Shown piece after piece: positions 29,532 through 57,430 of a stretch of DNA of 64,000 nucleotides. Each line of letters begins with the position of its first letter. Position 1 is the first letter of the stretch. Source of the stretch: Cheilinus undulatus (Eukaryota; Chordata; Actinopteri; Labriformes; Labridae); contig NC_054867.1 in assembly GCF_018320785.1 (NCBI RefSeq), positions 20,108,855 through 20,172,854 of the forward strand, in the 5' to 3' direction. Both the position numbers and the translations under genes were made by a program. Below the pieces are notes generated by a model. The model did no database searches. It saw nothing but the letters and a program-made list of their open reading frames with translations, and was not told the origin of the DNA.

Positions 29532-30465
29532 TCACAGTGCTGTTGTCAGATAGGTTCTGTCAGTACTGTTTGTAATGATTTGGTACTGTATCTGATGCTT
29601 ATTCAGGGTCAGGTTAAGGTGGCAGCAGGCGAAGTAAGTCAACCCAGATGTCCTTCTCCCAAGCAACAGTTGCTCCTGAGGGAAGCCAAGGTATTCCCTG
29701 GCCAGATGGGATATATATACCTGCCAGTGAGTTCTGGGTCTGCCCTGGGGTCTCCTCCAAATTGGACATTCCCCAAAGACCTCAAGAGTGAGGTGACCAA
29801 GAGGCATCCTGATCAGATGCCCGAACTATCTCAAATGGCTCCTTTCAATATGAAGGAGCAGCATCTCTACTTCGAGATCCATATGGATGTCTGAGCTCCT
29901 CGTAAGGCTGAGTCTAGACTTCTGCCTGTGGAATCTCATTTTGACTGCTTGAACCTGCAATCTCATTCTTTCATTAATTACCAGTAATTTATGACCATAG
30001 GTGAGGATTGGATTGGTAAAAAGAAAGCTTTACCTTACACATCAGAGATACTTGAACTCCTTCACTTGGGGCAAAGACTCACTCTCCACCAGGAGGGACT
30101 AACTCACCATTTTCCGGCAGATGGCCATGGCCATTGCCTTGAGATCCTGCCCATGAAAATCACAAACATAATGGGAGACAAAGTGCAGCCTTGACAGAGG
30201 CCAACACCCACAGGGAACGTGTCCAACTTTTGTGCTGAGAATGCAGACACAACTCTCACTCTGGTTATTTGGGGACCTGTTGGCTTGCAGCAGCAGACCC
30301 AGAACCCAATATTCAAAACACATGTAGACTGGATGAGCAAACTCCCATGCTCCTTCAGGTAGCCTTGCAAAAGAAAAGAGCTGGTCCACTGTCCCATTTT
30401 CAGGACGGTGTCTGCATTGTTCCTCTTGAACCCGAGGTTCAACAAGTGGCCAGTTAGCATGCCAG
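29532..30465 (-). mobile_element. Truncated LINE reverse-transcriptase relic
   Basis: On the minus strand, frames in order give a reverse-transcriptase segment near 30,210 (FPVGVGLCQGCTLSPIMF, the RT motif usually written G-L-x-Q-G-C-x-L-S-P) and then a C-terminal segment near 29,700-29,800 (WRRPQGRPRTHW, a common LINE C-terminal block). Frames shift between them and stops are present. No 5' end, endonuclease domain or target duplication was identified. The family may be Rex1- or CR1-like, but I could not decide. Confidence 0.8.
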
Positions 30466-31977
30466 TTTATTACCAGACTTTAACAGTGGGTGAAAAAAGC
30501 AGTCAAATTTTTGTGATAATTACCTCAAACGTCCGTTTACAATTAGCTGTTTGAAAAAAAAGGCAGTTTACCTGCCATCTTTTCCAGCATGTGTGAACAG
30601 TAGTTTGATATTTTGGACAACACTACCCTAGGCTGTGTACTCCACTGAAGTATACTGTAAAATATATCAGGGCCAGCTCAAACCTACATCAGGCCTTAAG
30701 CAACCCAACTGCTAATCAGTGTTATTAGCTCAATCATATCCTTTTTCCACCAAGCTAGGTCTAGTGCTGGTTCAGAGCTAGTGCCTGAGCTGGCACCAGT
30801 CCTTTGTTTTTCCACAGCCAAAGAACTGGTTCTTGATCAGAAAAAAATGGTTCCCCTTGCTAAACTCTTTGCCAAACCAAATCAAAGAACCAGTTCACCT
30901 CAGGGCCTGCGTGCTTATGTTGGGCTTATCTGGGCTGGGGTGACTATGTTCATTAACCAAAAACACCAATAAATTTAACACAGATATATATGTTGACCAC
31001 TTTTGGAGAAGCCCTGAGTAGGTAAAGCATGACCTAAAAAGAGAAAAAATGTCACTAAGGGTTTTTTGCCTGTGTATAATTTGTCCTGCAACCCCTTCAT
31101 GTAGTATCTACTTGGAAATTTTAAAAAATCCCTTCTCGCCCCTTTGTCTGTTTTGTATCCCCTTTAAGCTTGCCAAAGGGGCTGTGCTGTGTCTACAATT
31201 GCTGAAAACGCACTGAGAAAGAGCAAAAGGTTCTGAAGACAGCTCAGAATCACAGCTTTACTACACTTAATGCCTTGTGCTTCCATGTTGTGTTGTTGAG
31301 GTCGGGGTGCTCTGGGAAAGACCGAGTTCACGAGTTGTAAATCCAACTTTGGGAGACATTCCATTTGTCACTTCCGGTTAGAAGTCGGAAAAACAAGTTG
31401 GAATACGAGTTACAATGACAATCTGTGGCCAAAATACCTATCAGATCTAGTTTCTTACATCCAGACCCCTCAGGTCCTTTGAAGCAGGTTTACACTGTTC
31501 CTAGAATCAGAACCAAGCAGGATAAAGCAGCTTCTAGTTTCTACCTCATCACCTGTGGAACAAACTACCAGAGTACTGGAGGCTTTCTTCATTTGTTAAC
31601 TCTTGTTAAACAAGTCTTTAAACATATTCATTTACTGCTGCATTTCCATAGGGGGTTGGTCTGAGCCATGAAACTCCAGGTCTGAAAGGAAGTCTCACTT
31701 GTAAAAGGGTCTGGCTGTAGATCTGTAGGCCTTATATCTCAGAAAGAAAGTGCTATAATTTGCCAGTAACGTATTTCAAGTTTTAGATCAATTTTTTTTA
31801 ATCCATCATTATTGCCAAAGAAAAGTCTGGCAGTTACATTCATCAAATAACCATGCCGCAAACATTACAGATTAGCTAAATTTCTTAAGTAAAAGAGAAA
31901 AAAGTTTTTTTTTTTTTTTGTTTTTTTTTAAATCTGGGATTAAATTATGTGTGGACCTGTTTTAGGAGTAGTCACAC
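30466..31977. other. Non-coding stretch, no gene seen
   Basis: No supported coding segment. A T-rich low-complexity run lies at 31,904-31,930. Confidence 0.4.
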
Positions 31978-32339
31978 AAAAGATGGCTCACTTTAGCTTT
32001 GTAAAAAGCTACATAGCTTTGCTACTAAGGCTTACTGCAGAAGTAAATTCAGCTAAGTTAGCTTTAGCAATGTGAGCTTCAGCAAAAAAAGCTTTAGTAA
32101 ACATAGCTGCTTTGTGAGCTTAGCTTAAGCTATGTTAGCTACACAGCTATGTTGGCTATCTAACCTGTGGAATTGACCTATGGCTAAGTCCCGCCCTCAA
32201 ACGCGATGAGCCAGTCACAGTGCGTATAGCCATTCCAGTACACTCGGACAACTGCTGCCTGGACGTCCATTGAAATGAATGGTAGAAAGTCAGTTTTCAT
32301 CTGGTTTTATGAGGTTTTTTTGAGATTTTACGTTTAAAA

Positions 32340-32540
32340 ATGGTCAAACGTTGTTCATGGGGTACGTGCGACTCCAACACAAGGTATCCTGAGAGGCTGG
32401 GCAACGGAGTGTATTTTTTACCCTTTCCTAAGCCACATCTAAACCGAGAAAAGTGTCTTCTTTGGATAAAGTTGTGCGGTAGACCACAACATCAACTCAG
32501 CGTGAATAAAATTAACAAGGATATCTACATCTGTTCTAAG
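32340..32540 (+). CDS. THAP-type zinc finger, first exon only (partial or relic)
   Basis: A 67-codon open exon beginning MVKRCSWGTCDS and ending YICSK at a good donor (AAG|GTAAGC). It shows the THAP pattern: Cys5, Cys10, the hydrophobic/proline stretch FLPFPKP at 26-32, Trp42, and Cys65. The fourth ligand, a His two residues after Cys65, would be the first residue of the next exon. I found no such exon (CAC/CAT immediately after an AG acceptor) within the inverted-repeat unit, so the finger is incomplete here. THAP domains bind DNA in host regulators and in transposases. Its position inside inverted repeats favours a transposon origin. Confidence 0.6.
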
Positions 32541-32880
32541 GTAAGCCAACATCGTCTTTGAGGCTACATATTGTCCATTTGCTGGAAAGAAATAGAAAGT
32601 TATTTTTAACATCTCTAACGTTAGCAAAAGTTAGCCTAATGTTAGCTCCTAGCTGTGTTGTTTGTTGTGTCACGTTTTGTTGGGAGGTCATTGGCATTTT
32701 TTGTTTTAATTTTTGTACTTTGGTGATCGTACATCATTGTTAACTGTTGTCCAAAGGGCTCTAGTTAAACTAACGTTAACTTCTGGAGCTTAGTTTCATT
32801 AACTTATCTGTAATAGCCAAGATAACAATGGTTGGCAAACGTTATGCTGAATGATTCAATGTAAATACTGTAGCACCAAA

Positions 32881-33244
32881 CTAACGGAGAGACACTTGTG
32901 GTAAAGATGGTAAAAAGGCTGTTATATTTTTCTCATATTCTGAGCCTAAACCCTTAACTTCAGTGGCACTTTGATGCTGATCCTCTATCTTGTGGTCTGA
33001 GATTGTGATGGCAACGAGATGTGGTTTATCACGTTTGCACTGGAACCTGTAAATTTTGGCTTGTAATCGTAGCTTTTTATCTACCTTCTTGACAATAAAA
33101 TGATTAATATACCTCCAGTGCGTAGTTTAGACCCATTTGGTGACTTCTAGATGATATGTGATCTTTCTGTCTCCAAAAATCATCAATGGCCTCCTGTGAA
33201 ATGTCTCCTACTGTGATACCTGCAATAGCGTCTGGCTTAGCCAT
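32881..33244 (-). pseudogene. Frameshifted coding segment starting in the inverted repeat
   Basis: On the minus strand an ATG inside the right-hand inverted repeat opens a frame MAKPDAIAGITVGDISQEAI and onward, with DDFWRQKD and LNYALE. It stops after about 46 codons near 33,107. From about 33,107 another frame continues with NHFIVKKVDKKLRLQAKIY and then CKRDKPHLVAITISDHKIE, and stops at 32,881. The second part has the charge pattern of a folded protein and would join the first after a single-base shift. I do not recognise the family with confidence. It converges on the THAP exon. Confidence 0.45.
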
Positions 33245-34032
33245 AGGTCAATTACATTGCAACACAAGACACAATAACTATGGGGCTCTTGTAGCTGCAA
33301 TTCTATCGCTGACAACAACTCAAAGTCTGTCTTTTCAGAGTGCATAAAATTCTTGAACTCTGTTAGTTCACCTAAAGTGCTTTACAATCTCAGTGAGCCT
33401 TATGTTAGCTTCACTCACAATAGCTTGTGTTTTCTTGAGTAGAAATAAAATAAAGGAAGAAATAAAAAAACTAAGAAAATACGACAGTGGGCTCAGGCTA
33501 TCAATACAAAACAGAGAATAAAACTGGTTAACTACAGATTTAACAATAAACCGCCTACAAAATGCACAGAAAACAGCTCAGTCATACCGGTAAATCTCCA
33601 GGTTAACATGTGCAGAGTAAACAGGAAGTGAAAGACCATTATGCACTGACGTTTGTTGCTACTCGATGCGGTCACCTAGTGACCATATCTGTAACTGCCT
33701 GTGAATATCAACCTACATTCTAATCCTCATTTCAATGACAAAACGATGTCAGATACATAAGAAAAAAACAAAGAACATTAACATTTTAGGTAACTAACAT
33801 AGTATGAATATAACATAATTAGTGGATAAAATATATATGACTTACTTTAACACCTGGCTACAGCTACATAGCCCGTCATCTATAACTAAGATAGCTTTAG
33901 CAAGTGAGTTTTAGCAAATATAGCTGAAACTTACTCAGCCTCATAAATAATGTAGATGCATGGCTTACATAACTGCTTTGTAGCTCTATCATGTACGTAG
34001 GTTACACAGCTAACGGTAACACATGAGCCATC

Positions 34033-41440: not shown

Positions 41441-42183
41441 TTACTGCTCCATATCATTATCATTTTGCAGAGTTTTCATTGCCAGACCCCACAAAGTCAC
41501 ACTGGAGATAAACTGTCCTTCACTGGACCTGTAGGACCCACTACTGGGTCTACTAGAAGGAGTCAGAGAACTGCAGTGATTGTCTGAAGGGGGCAGGTAC
41601 GGCCTTCCCACTACACCTCTGCCCATCTCCACTGACATGTTCCCGTTCTCCACGTATGGACCGTACACCACCTCCTGAGGCAGGTGGGGCTTTGCCAGCT
41701 TCATGTGGTCTGTAGCAGTCAGAGGTGCACTCTTGTCCTGGTGGCTGGAGGAGAGGAGGTGGTGGGGCACCAGAGAACGAAGCTCTGGAAGTGGGGTGGG
41801 GGTAGAGGCTGGGCTGAGGTGCATGCTGGGTGATGGAGTGTCTATATGTGACGCTTGTTGAGATGGTGAAGGAGCAGACTGTGGGGGTTTCTCTAACCCT
41901 GCATGGGGCATCATGCTGGGAAAATGCTCCTCACTGGTAGCTGCAGGTCTACTGTGGCTGACAGAACCTGCGACTGAGGCCGCTCCATCTGAACCCCTAG
42001 GTGGGTCTGTGTTTTCTGTTGCTGGGCTTTCAGCTGGAGCTCCTTTACAGTGTGAAGTGCTGTGTCTCCTCAGCATGGCCGAGCGGGTGAAGCTCTTTCC
42101 ACAGGCGTTACACGCATACGGCTTCTCACCAGTGTGTGAGCGAATGTGACGCTGCAGATCCCCTGAGCCAATAAAACACTTCC
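41441..42183 (-). CDS. zbtb49: ZBTB49, coding exon 7 (last)
   Basis: The terminal coding exon (743 bp) has its acceptor at 42,184-42,185 and a TAA stop at 41,441. It completes zinc finger 6 ([11 protein letters not shown]) and encodes finger 7 ([19 protein letters not shown]), followed by a long Ser/Pro-rich tail. It ends in [20 protein letters not shown], which strongly resembles the C-terminus of mammalian ZBTB49 as I remember it. That tail is the best evidence for this specific paralogue among BTB zinc fingers. ZBTB49 is a nuclear transcription factor. The whole coding sequence adds up to 2,376 bp (791 residues), close to the human length of about 765. Confidence 0.93.
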
Positions 42184-44549
42184 CTGTGTAGATTCAAAAC
42201 ACAGATTAAATGTAAAAACAGTGTTCTCACAGTAGCTACAGTACAAACAAGATTATAAATGCTGAGTGTTGTTCTATGTTTAAACTTTAAGCACAAAAAT
42301 CAAGTCCACAAGAAAAAGTTTTAATGTCTCAAAAATTGATTTAATTTTTATTTGTATTTTTAAATGAATTATGCCAAATAACCAGGTGGCTAACTACATT
42401 GGCTCAATTTGCTATATGCAAGCAGGTATGTTTTGTACTATAATAACTTACAACCTTAACAGAGCATCAAATACCCAAGCAGCATTATCCAGTGTTGAAA
42501 AATTAAACCAATTCAGAAGTAAAAAAAAAAAACAACTAGTTGCTCAAGTCTCCACTTGAGACTGCTTCCAAAAGCCCCGGAAGTCTTGTAAACGCCTGTG
42601 AACATAGTCCCATTTAAACATCAGAAGCAAACACGTTTACAGCATGGTACTATATTTAAATACATTTTTGCTCTCTATAACTAGTTTCTTCATTCATAAT
42701 GAGGCTAGAGTGGATGATTTATTTTACTCATCTGTTTTAATCATATTAAGGAACATAAGTATGTAAAGTTTGCATTACTAGGGGTGGTTGAGTTGCAGGA
42801 GACTTATGGACCACCTCAACCCCACCACTCTTCCTGCTTCTAGACTGAAAGTTAGGGGATGCTCAGACAATTCCCTACCAGTGATTAATGATCTGTTTTG
42901 GGCATTCAGACTATACGTGTAATTTATCACGTAGGTTTACACGATACATTTAAAGGAACGCTGCATGTTACTACTTTTTGACATTATCAAATCAACATTA
43001 GTGTTTTCAAGCATATGTTGTGTAAAGAAACCCACTAGATTGCTACATTTTGAAGATAATGTAAAAGATAGAGTCATCTGTAAGCTGATTTCATCTGGAT
43101 GCATTATTCTTTGTCTCACATCTTTTCTAATATACTCACCTTGATCTACATGCAGTTACTTGTTTCTTAATGTCCTCCGTGCTAAAACTGCAATTGGTTT
43201 TAAAATTGAATTTGTTTTAAGGATGAAACTTGAGATAGGCAGAGCAATGCATTCATATGACATCACTACCCAGAAAGCATTTCAGAAAAATGACAGCCTA
43301 CACAGTTGCTTACATAATTTTTTCCATAATTTTTTAGAATTGACTTGAAAATTTAGAAACCAAAAGTTTCTTTATATGATATACATAGTTTGGCAAAGCA
43401 TGACATCACGACAGAACAGCCTGCCATTGAAAGTCGAAGCCCTTGTAAAAAAAACAATATGGTGGAAAGCAGCTGCTAGTGGCAGAAATGATTAAAAACA
43501 TTATAAAAAATCAATAAAAAGACGTCCAATATTGGAGTTACTGGTGTGGATTTAATCTTTCAAGAAACTTGAAAGTAACCCAAGTTTCAGGCTACCAAGA
43601 AAAGCCTCTGTAAGGGCTGCAAAGGCATGGATAGCATCATTAGAATGATACAGTGGAAAACAAGGATTTATGGTTTAAAACTTAAATAACCTTTTGTAAC
43701 CTGTGTCTCTTCTGGTTGTTCTGTTGTTTCTAAAAACCAATCTGGATAAAGGCCTCCCAGACCCCCTCTGTTTGCAGTCTGAGCTATTGGATATTATACA
43801 ATCTTCAGAAAGCATTGATATGCATCCACATCTAGCCATAAGGATTACCTCTTCGTATCTGAATGCCCACTGATGCATAGAATAAACAGGGCATTAGGTT
43901 GATATAGCACCAATATAGTGATCTTCAAAGGCTTCTGAACACCTCTCCTGAAACCAATGGTTGACTTCTTGGAGACTACGTCCATATTTAATACAGTCTA
44001 TAAAAATACTTCACATGGACTAAGCTGCTGAGAGAGCACATGCAGTGCAGTGACAGACAATCATGAATCAAAATTAGAGTTTCAATGTTATGACCAGCTG
44101 GTGTACCCAAGTACTCTCTATATGAAACACCTTCTCTTGAAGGGCAGCTGCAGAATCTAAAAAGATAGTGTACACAATTTGAAAACAGGGTCTAATTAAG
44201 CTTCACAGTGTGTGCACATTATGCTTCAAGCCTTTGTTTGCCTTCAGTTTTGCTAATTTAAGCATGCAAACAGTGCCTTTTCATAAAAGATTCCTTCATT
44301 TAAAAGTCAAACTGATTTTTGGCCCTACAGCAGAAAATGACCAAGATATTCCATATTTAAATAAGAACACCGTAATGGACACTGACATCAAAGTCAGCAG
44401 TTAGCACATGGTTCTTATGCTTGGCAAACCCAACAAAAAAAGTTGTTTGCTAATCATGTCAGCTCTAGAACAGTGTTTTGCTACAGCTACGGCATCTACA
44501 GTGAAATCATTGTTAATCATTTGAACACGTAGTAGACACTATCTCTTAC

Positions 44550-45403: not shown

Positions 45404-45492
45404 CTGCAACAAAAAAAGGTTTGCTTTTCAAAGATTGTGCTTAAATTACTACAGTTATATGAAAATTTCACAATTTTAAAAACTCTGAATAC

Positions 45493-46607
45493 CTGTATGC
45501 GAGCGTTTGTGAAGCTCCAGGTTGCTTGGGTGTTTGAAGATCTTCCCACACACCTCACAACAATATTGCTTGTGTCCTGTCTGCTGTGGCGCCTCTGGCA
45601 CAGTCTCCATGTTTTGCTGCTCTTGGTTTACAGGCGGAGGGCTGGGAAGTTGTGCATCCGTTGCTGTCTCAGGAACCTCCTCCTGGGCTTCATTATGGTC
45701 CTCAGCAGGAGCTTGTGAAACTTCTGTTTGGACCACAGACTCCACTTGATGACTCTCTTTGGGGCAGCTGAGGACAGGGTCACTGACTGATTCTGCAAAC
45801 ATCTCCTCCAAAGCCTTCTGAGAGCGGAGGTAGTTGTATTTCTTCAGGTACACGGCCTTTTTAGGGCGCACCGGCTTGTTGAGAAGGGAGTCTGCAGAGT
45901 TGGAGCTGGGGGTGTTTAAATTATCTGATGGTGTTAAAGTGGAGACTGGGTTCTTTTCTATTGCCACAGATGTACAGGGAGGGTTGGGCTGAGTGGGGTT
46001 TCCTGAGCATATGGGAGTGTGGCTGACCCCAGGCTGACACTGCTGATCTTCACCCAGCACCAAAGGGCCTGGGCCTTGATTTGAGGCAGCCATATTAGTT
46101 TGAATCGCACTTTGTTTGAAGTACTGCTTACTGTAGAAGTTACGGAGCTTGTAACCATGGACTAGCTGTTTCTCTACAGGTGCCTGACTGCTGCTAGCTG
46201 TGTCACAGTTCTGGCTGCTATGAAGCACAGAAACAGGCATCCTTTTGGTATGGTCCAGGTCACTGCTGAAGCCAGGCCTCTGGGTTTCTGAGGGGCAGTG
46301 GAGATCAACATCATGAGGAAGACTGCTCCCTAAAAGGCAGTCATGCTCAGAGCCCAGCATGCCTGGTAGAGAAAATGATGAGATTTCCACTGGTGGAGGG
46401 CATGGCTTCAGGAAGGCATTGCACATGCTCTGTACATTTGGAACCTGCAAACACTGTGCAATGTCCAGAAGTGCTTGAACATTATCTTGGTTGATGTCAA
46501 GATGGGAGGTGTACATGTAGTCCAGTATTTGCCCAATGCCACCTACATCCTGGATAACCAAGTTGAACACTTCATTCTTCTGGCTGGGGGAATTTTGGAA
46601 TAAAGAC
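45493..46607 (-). CDS. zbtb49: ZBTB49, coding exon 2 (large)
   Basis: A 1,115-bp exon with acceptor TTCTAG and donor GTATTC. It finishes the BTB/POZ domain (SLFQNSPSQKNEVF, then IGQILDYMYTSHLDINQDNV). The domain is followed by a long acidic, Ser/Pro-rich linker with a basic KPVRPKKAVYLKKYNYLRSQ-like patch, which resembles a similar patch in mammalian ZBTB49. It ends with zinc finger 1 (YCCEVCGKIFKHPSNLELHKRSH). The BTB domain mediates dimerisation and co-regulator contacts. No interruption is seen. Confidence 0.95.
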
Positions 46608-46681
46608 CTAGAAAGATCATAGTGGAACTGTTCACACTGGGACATTCCAAACATGAGTTTTAATAATAAAAGACGGCACTC

Positions 46682-56225: not shown

Positions 56226-57430
56226 CAGGTACATCTAAAAAAATTAGAATATCATGAAAAGTTCAATATTTTTTGTCACTCATGTCAGAAAGTGAAACCC
56301 AAATATTATATAGACTCATTACACATAGAGTGAAATATTTCAAGCCTTTATTTCTTGAAAAGTTGATGATTATGATGATTATGGCGTACATATAATGAAA
56401 ACCCAAAATTCAGTGTCTCTGGAAATTCGAATATTACATAAGACAGACATAAACAGAAATGTCAGGCTTCTGAAAAGTATGCTCATTTCTATGCCTTCAG
56501 TACTTGGTTGGGCATCCTTTTGCATGAATTACTGCATCAATGCGGCATGGCATGGAGGCGATCAGCCTGTGGCACTGCTCAGGTATAATGGAAGCCCAGG
56601 TTGCTTTGATAGCGGCCTTCAGGTCATCTACATTGTTGGGTCTGGTGTCTCTCATCTTCCTCTTGACAATACTCCATAGATTCTCTATGGGGTTCAGGTC
56701 AGGCCAGTTTGCTGGCCAATCAAGCACAGTAACACCATGGTCACTGAACCAGCTTTTGGTACCTTTGGCAGTGTGGGCAGGTGCCAAGTCCCGCTGGAAA
56801 ATGAAATCAGCATCTCCATCAAGCTTGTCAGCAGAAGGAAGCATGAGGTGTTATAAAATGTCCTTGTAGATGACTGCGTTGACTGTGGACAGCAGAAAAC
56901 ACAGTGGATCAACACCAGCAGATGCCATGGCAACCCAAATCATCACTGACTGTGGAAACTTCACACTGGACTTCAAGCAACATGGATTCTGTGCCTCTCA
57001 ACTCTTCCTCCAGACCCTGGGACCTTGATTTTCAAATGACATGCAACATTTATTGTCATCTGAAAAGAGGACTTTGGACCACTGAGCAACAGTCTAGTTC
57101 TTTTTCTCCACAGCCCAGGTAAGACGCTTCTGACATTGTCTCTGGTTCAGGAGTGGCTTGACACGAGAAATGTGACATTTGTAGCCCATGTCTAGGATTG
57201 GTCTGTGCGTAGTGGCTCTTGTTGATGCGCTGACTCCAGCCTGAGTCCTCTCCTTGTGAAACTCCCCCAAAATCTTGATGTGTGTTTCACACATCCATCT
57301 AGAAAACCACTCATAGACAGTGATTGGGAAAGGGCAGAGCCTTTGAAAAAAAAAACTCGGAGGATAATTGGATGAACATTCTGTCACATCTTTACGTGAT
57401 GTAGCCGCTACCAAGCTGTACCCCTACTGA
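56226..57430 (-). mobile_element. Tc1/mariner element with long transposase remnants
   Basis: The left terminus CAGGTACATCTAAAAAAATT, then TAGAATATCATGAAAAG, matches in inverse the terminus at 63,660-63,710. Minus-strand frames give, in order, the helix-turn-helix region (YKCHISRVKPLLNQRQCQKR, 57,100-57,200), a central region near 56,900, and a 115-residue catalytic C-terminal part (56,497-56,844). That part includes RDLAPAHTAKGTKSWF, then WPDLNPIENLWS, the second Asp and the Glu of the DD34E triad. It is better preserved than the other Tc1 copies but is still frameshifted, and its right terminus is missing. Confidence 0.88.

Follow-up and report, generated by a model that had tools for sequence, protein, structure and literature searches.

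Structure of the inverted-repeat unit

The DNA analyzed here is a 64,000-nucleotide stretch of Cheilinus undulatus (assembly GCF_018320785.1, contig NC_054867.1, here numbered C3, positions 20,108,855 to 20,172,854 of the forward strand), referred to as the window. It contains a unit of about 1.1 kb bounded by the perfect 18-bp inverted repeats AATTGACCTATGGCTAAG and CTTAGCCATAGGTCAATT, located exactly at 32171-32188 (+) and 33236-33253 (-). The outer four bases of both repeats are AATT. Apart from this pair, the only perfect 18-bp inverted repeats of the window with arms closer than 5 kb were two palindromes and one AT microsatellite. An exon encoding part of a THAP domain reads inward from the left end, and the relic of a second open reading frame (ORF2) reads inward from the right end. 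The unit is very probably a copy of a high-copy, non-autonomous DNA transposon family of the ISL2EU group (PHIS, Harbinger-like). Its features are as follows, in window positions; two-ended copies are those with both ends present.

32174..33250, very probable non-autonomous ISL2EU-type element, window copy, 1077 bp (A|AT|T model), from the end comparison of 36 copies and the empty sites L107 and L108
32175-33249, extent of the same copy under a 4-bp duplication of AATT
32171..32174, left target AATT (A|AT|T), present at the left border in 32 of 36 two-ended copies
33250..33253, right target AATT, present at the right border in 30 of 36 two-ended copies
32171..32188 (+), left terminal inverted repeat, AATT included, with 341 genome matches
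33236..33253 (-), right terminal inverted repeat, AATT included
32340..32540 (+), putative first exon of a transposase gene, THAP domain to the third zinc ligand (...ICSK), ATG at 32340
32541..32546 (+), splice donor GTAAGC
32962..33232 (-), probable relic of the second gene (ORF2), the part preceding SWIM-YqaJ in related elements, with a 2-bp frameshifting deletion at ~33111
33232..33233, junction of a 44-bp deletion seen in the window copy only, which brings the inverted-repeat ATG (33244-33242, -) in frame with the ORF2 relic

The initial annotation had described both the perfect repeats and a left THAP exon that stops at a splice donor, and each was found at exactly these positions. The exon matched positions 1-56 of the 87-position Pfam THAP profile with an E-value of 2.9e-4 and 22.0 bits, below the cut-off of 23.9. 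A partial score is expected because the domain is cut at the intron, and the match stops where the intron starts. Read on into the intron, the exon would give ...ICSKVSQHR-stop. The donor GT was kept in 40 of 40 aligned copies. On C15, a YqaJ place has a decayed THAP exon nearby that ends HSQLNVMKINKHTYV*SK|GTAAGG, the same break point as in the window unit, and several other THAP matches in the genome end at a similar profile region.

Copy number and decay of the family

The 18-mer of the ends had 341 exact matches (179 + 162) in the 1.17-Gb genome and none for the reversed control, so the identical ends that the initial annotation proposed to look for are abundant. Places were listed for 100 of the 341 ends, and the pairing analysis is limited to these. 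They formed 24 adjacent end pairs within 10 kb, 21 of which span 1073-1137 bp; the remaining three span 573, 797, and 6722 bp. Longer copies with the same ends had also been proposed, and no full-length parent was found among the places listed. The 6722-bp pair on C2, the sole longer one, was rejected as a full element: judged from its two ends (2.5 of 6.7 kb read), it is a standard copy split at consensus position ~734-744, most likely by a nested insertion.

A DNA search, of which the best 40 of 417 candidates were scored, returned the window copy and 39 others at 88-92% identity. The match starts at position 1 in 33 of these others and stops at unit position 1059-1064 in 38. A protein search with the right-hand relic gave E-values below 1e-42 for all of the 150 candidates scored out of 449. 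Searches of IMG/VR and GTDB with P0003 and P0001 found no relative, and nine IMG/VR stretches carrying a 16-bp end piece share just 15-28-bp pieces with the unit. Comparisons with NCBIfam and with solved structures gave nothing meaningful, and four strings from the ends had no match in the literature.

Mean divergence from the consensus of the 40 aligned copies, which were selected by likeness to the window copy, was 5.6%; the window copy itself diverges by 4.6%. The ratio of nonsynonymous to synonymous changes, measured against the spectrum of the non-coding parts of the unit, was 0.87 for THAP and 0.92 for ORF2. Stops numbered 51 against 28.6 expected in THAP and 20 against 37.7 expected in ORF2. 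Both relics thus decay near-neutrally, which indicates that they are probably passengers.

Target site and empty sites

Borders were examined in 44 copies (39 fetched, that of the window, and L087-L090). Eight with one end missing (L051, L078, L079, L084, L085, L086, L087, and L090) were dropped, leaving 36 two-ended copies. AATT stands at both borders in 26 of them. The sequence beyond AATT differs between left and right and among copies.

Empty sites were then compared. A search with the joined flanks of the copy L061, in which 40 of 2435 candidates were scored, returned many uninterrupted relatives; of five that were read, four have a single AATT and one has AACT. For the window copy (40 of 260 candidates scored), relatives at C17:25060180-25060300 and C19:33691830-33691940 have a single AATT in ACC(A/T)GTGGAATTAGATTG. 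To the left of AATT, the match of these two is limited to ~14 bases, since the left flank is part of another repeat. AGTT stands in a third relative, and a fourth stretch does not reach across the site. With a single AATT in the empty sites and two flanking the element, one AATT became two, as expected from the AATT border and target duplication suggested in the initial annotation. A 2-bp and a 4-bp duplication give the same result here because AATT is palindromic; we favor the 2-bp form, which would match the A|AT|T target of ISL2EU and leave inverted repeats of 15 bp.

The target preference extends to YAATTR, with a pyrimidine (C or T) before AATT in 31 of 36 copies, A in one, and a purine after it in 29 of 36. 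The right flank at 33254-33335, where the unit is inserted, is a dispersed repeat with relatives on C17, C19, and C20. The left flank consists of a different repeat, rich in AGCTA.

The right-hand frame, a probable relic altered in the window copy

In the window copy, the right frame runs from 33244 to 33107 (-) with an ATG within the inverted repeat and 46 codons, and a continuation in another frame of the same strand runs from 33126 to 32884 (-). The start of the frame in the repeat and the frameshift, both noted in the initial annotation, exist in this copy and were seen in no other of the 40 aligned. Before the right repeat, 36 of 39 other aligned copies have 44 extra bp, and L051, L066, and L079 deviate there in other ways. 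The exact deletion junction occurs in 1 of 40 aligned rows, that of the window copy. The 2-bp deletion at ~33111, which causes the frameshift, is present in none of the other 39 rows. The ATG of the repeat was therefore rejected as the true start of the right gene, since it was brought into frame by the 44-bp deletion seen in this copy alone; the case shows how such a deletion makes an inverted repeat resemble a gene start.

The ORF2 relic in the 40-copy consensus is a single open frame of 92 codons. The codon preceding it, located in 39 of 40 rows, is GTG or CTG in 33 and ATG in none. Frame length was rejected as a sign of coding: the longest stop-free run of the unit, 82 codons, was equaled or exceeded in 51% of 2000 Markov simulations of it. 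Since length is uninformative, coding status rests on relatives instead. The 92-codon consensus relic resembles an exon upstream of SWIM-YqaJ, with a score of 48 that was reached by 0 of 2000 shuffles. Outside the family of the unit, several sequences like the relic are exons upstream of YqaJ genes, so the relic is most likely a piece of an element gene. No Pfam match to the Myb/SANT domain of the PIF/Harbinger second gene was found in the relic, which retains only the first part of ORF2.

ISL2EU-type genes elsewhere in the genome

ISL2EU elements are described with AT duplications in an A|AT|T target, a first open reading frame (ORF1) with THAP, helix-turn-helix (HTH), and DDE domains, and an ORF2 with YqaJ (Han et al. 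2015, PMC4482050). They have been reported in several teleosts (PMC9179366). Genome profile searches found YqaJ at 33 places (43 of 43 candidates scored), HTH_Tnp_4 at 35 (150 of 180), and THAP at 109 (150 of 169). HTH_Tnp_4 lies within 7 kb of 15 of the 33 YqaJ places and is convergent at 14 of them. THAP lies within 7 kb of 17 and is convergent at 13, and all three are convergent at 8 places. Pfam matches included DDE_Tnp_4 (E 2.7e-45) with HTH_Tnp_4 (E 1.7e-12) at L035 and YqaJ at L018.

Within one genome, ISL2EU-type transposase and YqaJ genes are therefore mostly convergent. Convergent coding, regarded as unusual in the initial annotation, is the usual layout for this type in this genome. 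Its alternative proposals fared differently: the deleted two-gene element is supported, as the unit keeps the apparent 5' ends of both ISL2EU genes without DDE and YqaJ, and a captured coding sequence is unnecessary. ISL2EU-type elements in the genome include the following.

C22, THAP 1529701, HTH 1530751, YqaJ 1532368
C13:7012777-7018240
C10:34053017-34056965

These elements share with the unit the convergent THAP/HTH transposase and YqaJ genes, and some of their THAP matches end at the profile region where that of the unit ends. They differ in belonging to another sequence family and in retaining YqaJ and HTH_Tnp_4, some copies with stops. On C20, three equal-scoring YqaJ places (15925778, 15952187, and 15988000), each with a convergent HTH_Tnp_4, lie 26-36 kb apart and probably arose when a segment with an ISL2EU-type element was duplicated. 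Another repeat family with THAP also seems present, with profile ~2-86 and ~95-codon frames, many with one stop. Its places include the following.

C6:9084562
C3:20382347
C1:4963508
C18:41767222

Evaluation of the ISL2EU assignment

The unit resembles ISL2EU in its AATT (A|AT|T) target and its THAP exon at one end, and probably in its ORF2 relic, which is similar to sequence upstream of YqaJ; the length of its inverted repeats is within the published range of 6-259 bp. It differs in length, with ~1.1 kb and a deleted middle against a mean autonomous consensus of ~4.8 kb, and in having no catalytic domain left.

Several observations weigh against the assignment. The termini open TGACC or GACC, a TG or GA start in place of the usual GG. 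The HTH, DDE, and YqaJ parts are absent, and with DDE and YqaJ gone the superfamily call rests on target, layout, THAP, and ORF2 similarity. No full-length parent with the ends of the family was found, with 299 of the 449 ORF2 candidates unscored and the places of 241 ends unlisted. The ORF2 relic had no meaningful Pfam match, and its consensus has no in-frame ATG upstream. In tblastn searches of the YqaJ loci with 1.5-kb flanks, the window frames had no match at E 0.01 in 30 of 33, and the consensus relics gave weak matches only. The likeness of the relic is confined to exons farther upstream of YqaJ. The matching exon was chosen by eye and pattern; one of those tried, exon 1 of L094, was not significant by itself (31 of 2000 shuffles) and in that case aligns out of order. 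The THAP consensus of the unit scored 28-35 against six other THAP stretches of the genome, two of them on the wrong strand and with no shuffle control, and by this sequence comparison it does not appear to group with them. Among the HTH neighbors of YqaJ, one is divergent and one place also has an HTH on the same strand. Among the THAP neighbors, three are on the same strand only, one is divergent, and one occurs in both orientations. Some of the convergent cases are not independent: the three on C20 resemble a single duplication, and two on C13 have an HTH place in common. Our confidence in the ISL2EU assignment is slightly lowered because the THAP comparison is uncontrolled and the E-values of the exon search are weak.

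Comparison with other transposon groups

Some Kolobok elements carry THAP domains, and no DDE part is left in the unit to identify its transposase. It is nevertheless unlikely that the unit derives from P elements or Kolobok, THAP-bearing superfamilies with no relation to ISL2EU. The zebrafish P element THAP9/Pdre2, as described in PMC10983969, has a THAP domain in its transposase and shares short inverted repeats and internally deleted copies with the unit. It differs in its ends and its 8-bp duplications, and no second gene is mentioned in the part of that description drawn on here. An 8-bp duplication does not fit the unit, whose flanks beyond AATT differ left from right and whose empty sites hold a single AATT. 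Kolobok is described with a TTAA target duplication (PMC9587614); the target of the unit is AATT. The TWA duplication of PIF/Harbinger does not match the AATT target. The ORF2 relic, with its resemblance to an exon upstream of YqaJ, also speaks against a P-element or Kolobok origin.

A transposon that captured host coding sequence at its right end is very unlikely, as judged from comparisons that took in no host fish proteins. The relic, lacking a meaningful Pfam match and an in-frame ATG, would fit such a capture, whereas the relic-like exons lie upstream of YqaJ genes, many of which adjoin THAP/HTH_Tnp_4 genes.

Membership of the Spy group of PHIS has an extremely low probability. Spy belongs to the same superfamily, has an AT-rich palindromic target, and is described with an AAATTT target, no duplication, and one gene (PMC4482050). 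In the unit, A precedes AATT in just one of 36 copies, hence the target is not AAATTT; two AATT copies flank the element against one in the empty sites, and two gene relics are present. Finally, a chance inverted repeat around unrelated frames, which would suit frame lengths no longer than chance, is refuted by the 341 exact ends, the at least 150 scored places, and the empty sites.

Proposed origin of the family

Under the favored ISL2EU origin, a full element would have carried two convergent genes. The left gene would encode a transposase with THAP, HTH, and DDE domains and be interrupted by an intron behind the CSK codons of THAP; the right gene, ORF2, would have SWIM and YqaJ exonuclease domains at its end. 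A single deletion derivative may have lost DDE, SWIM, and YqaJ, with both termini, the THAP exon and its splice donor, and the beginning of ORF2 left in place. An ISL2EU transposase would then have amplified it in trans into many uniform ~1.1-kb copies, inserted at AATT with duplication of either 2 bp (AT within A|AT|T) or 4 bp. The copies then decayed about neutrally. In the window copy, 44 bp near the right end and 2 bp within the ORF2 relic are also gone.

The derivative could also have been favored because a truncated THAP protein or short ORF2 product represses or titrates ISL2EU transposition. Truncated P-element repressors are a model for such repression, and the conservation of the donor GT is compatible with it. 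The near-neutral decay speaks against it, and we consider this quite unlikely. The finding is of modest importance: one more non-autonomous family of the ISL2EU type, present in many copies and with parts of both genes retained.

Other features of the window

Several other frames were observed on the minus strand of the window.

45476-46681 (-) and 41441-42193 (-), frames with BTB/POZ and C2H2 zinc-finger domains that probably are exons of a single host gene of the ZBTB type
56497-56850 (-) and 57094-57423 (-), Tc1/mariner-type relics with DDE_3 (over the cut-off) and HTH_Tnp_Tc3_2 (below the cut-off)
30104-30466 (-), possible retroelement relic with a fragment of reverse transcriptase (RVT_1, 21.7 bits, under a cut-off of 29.6)
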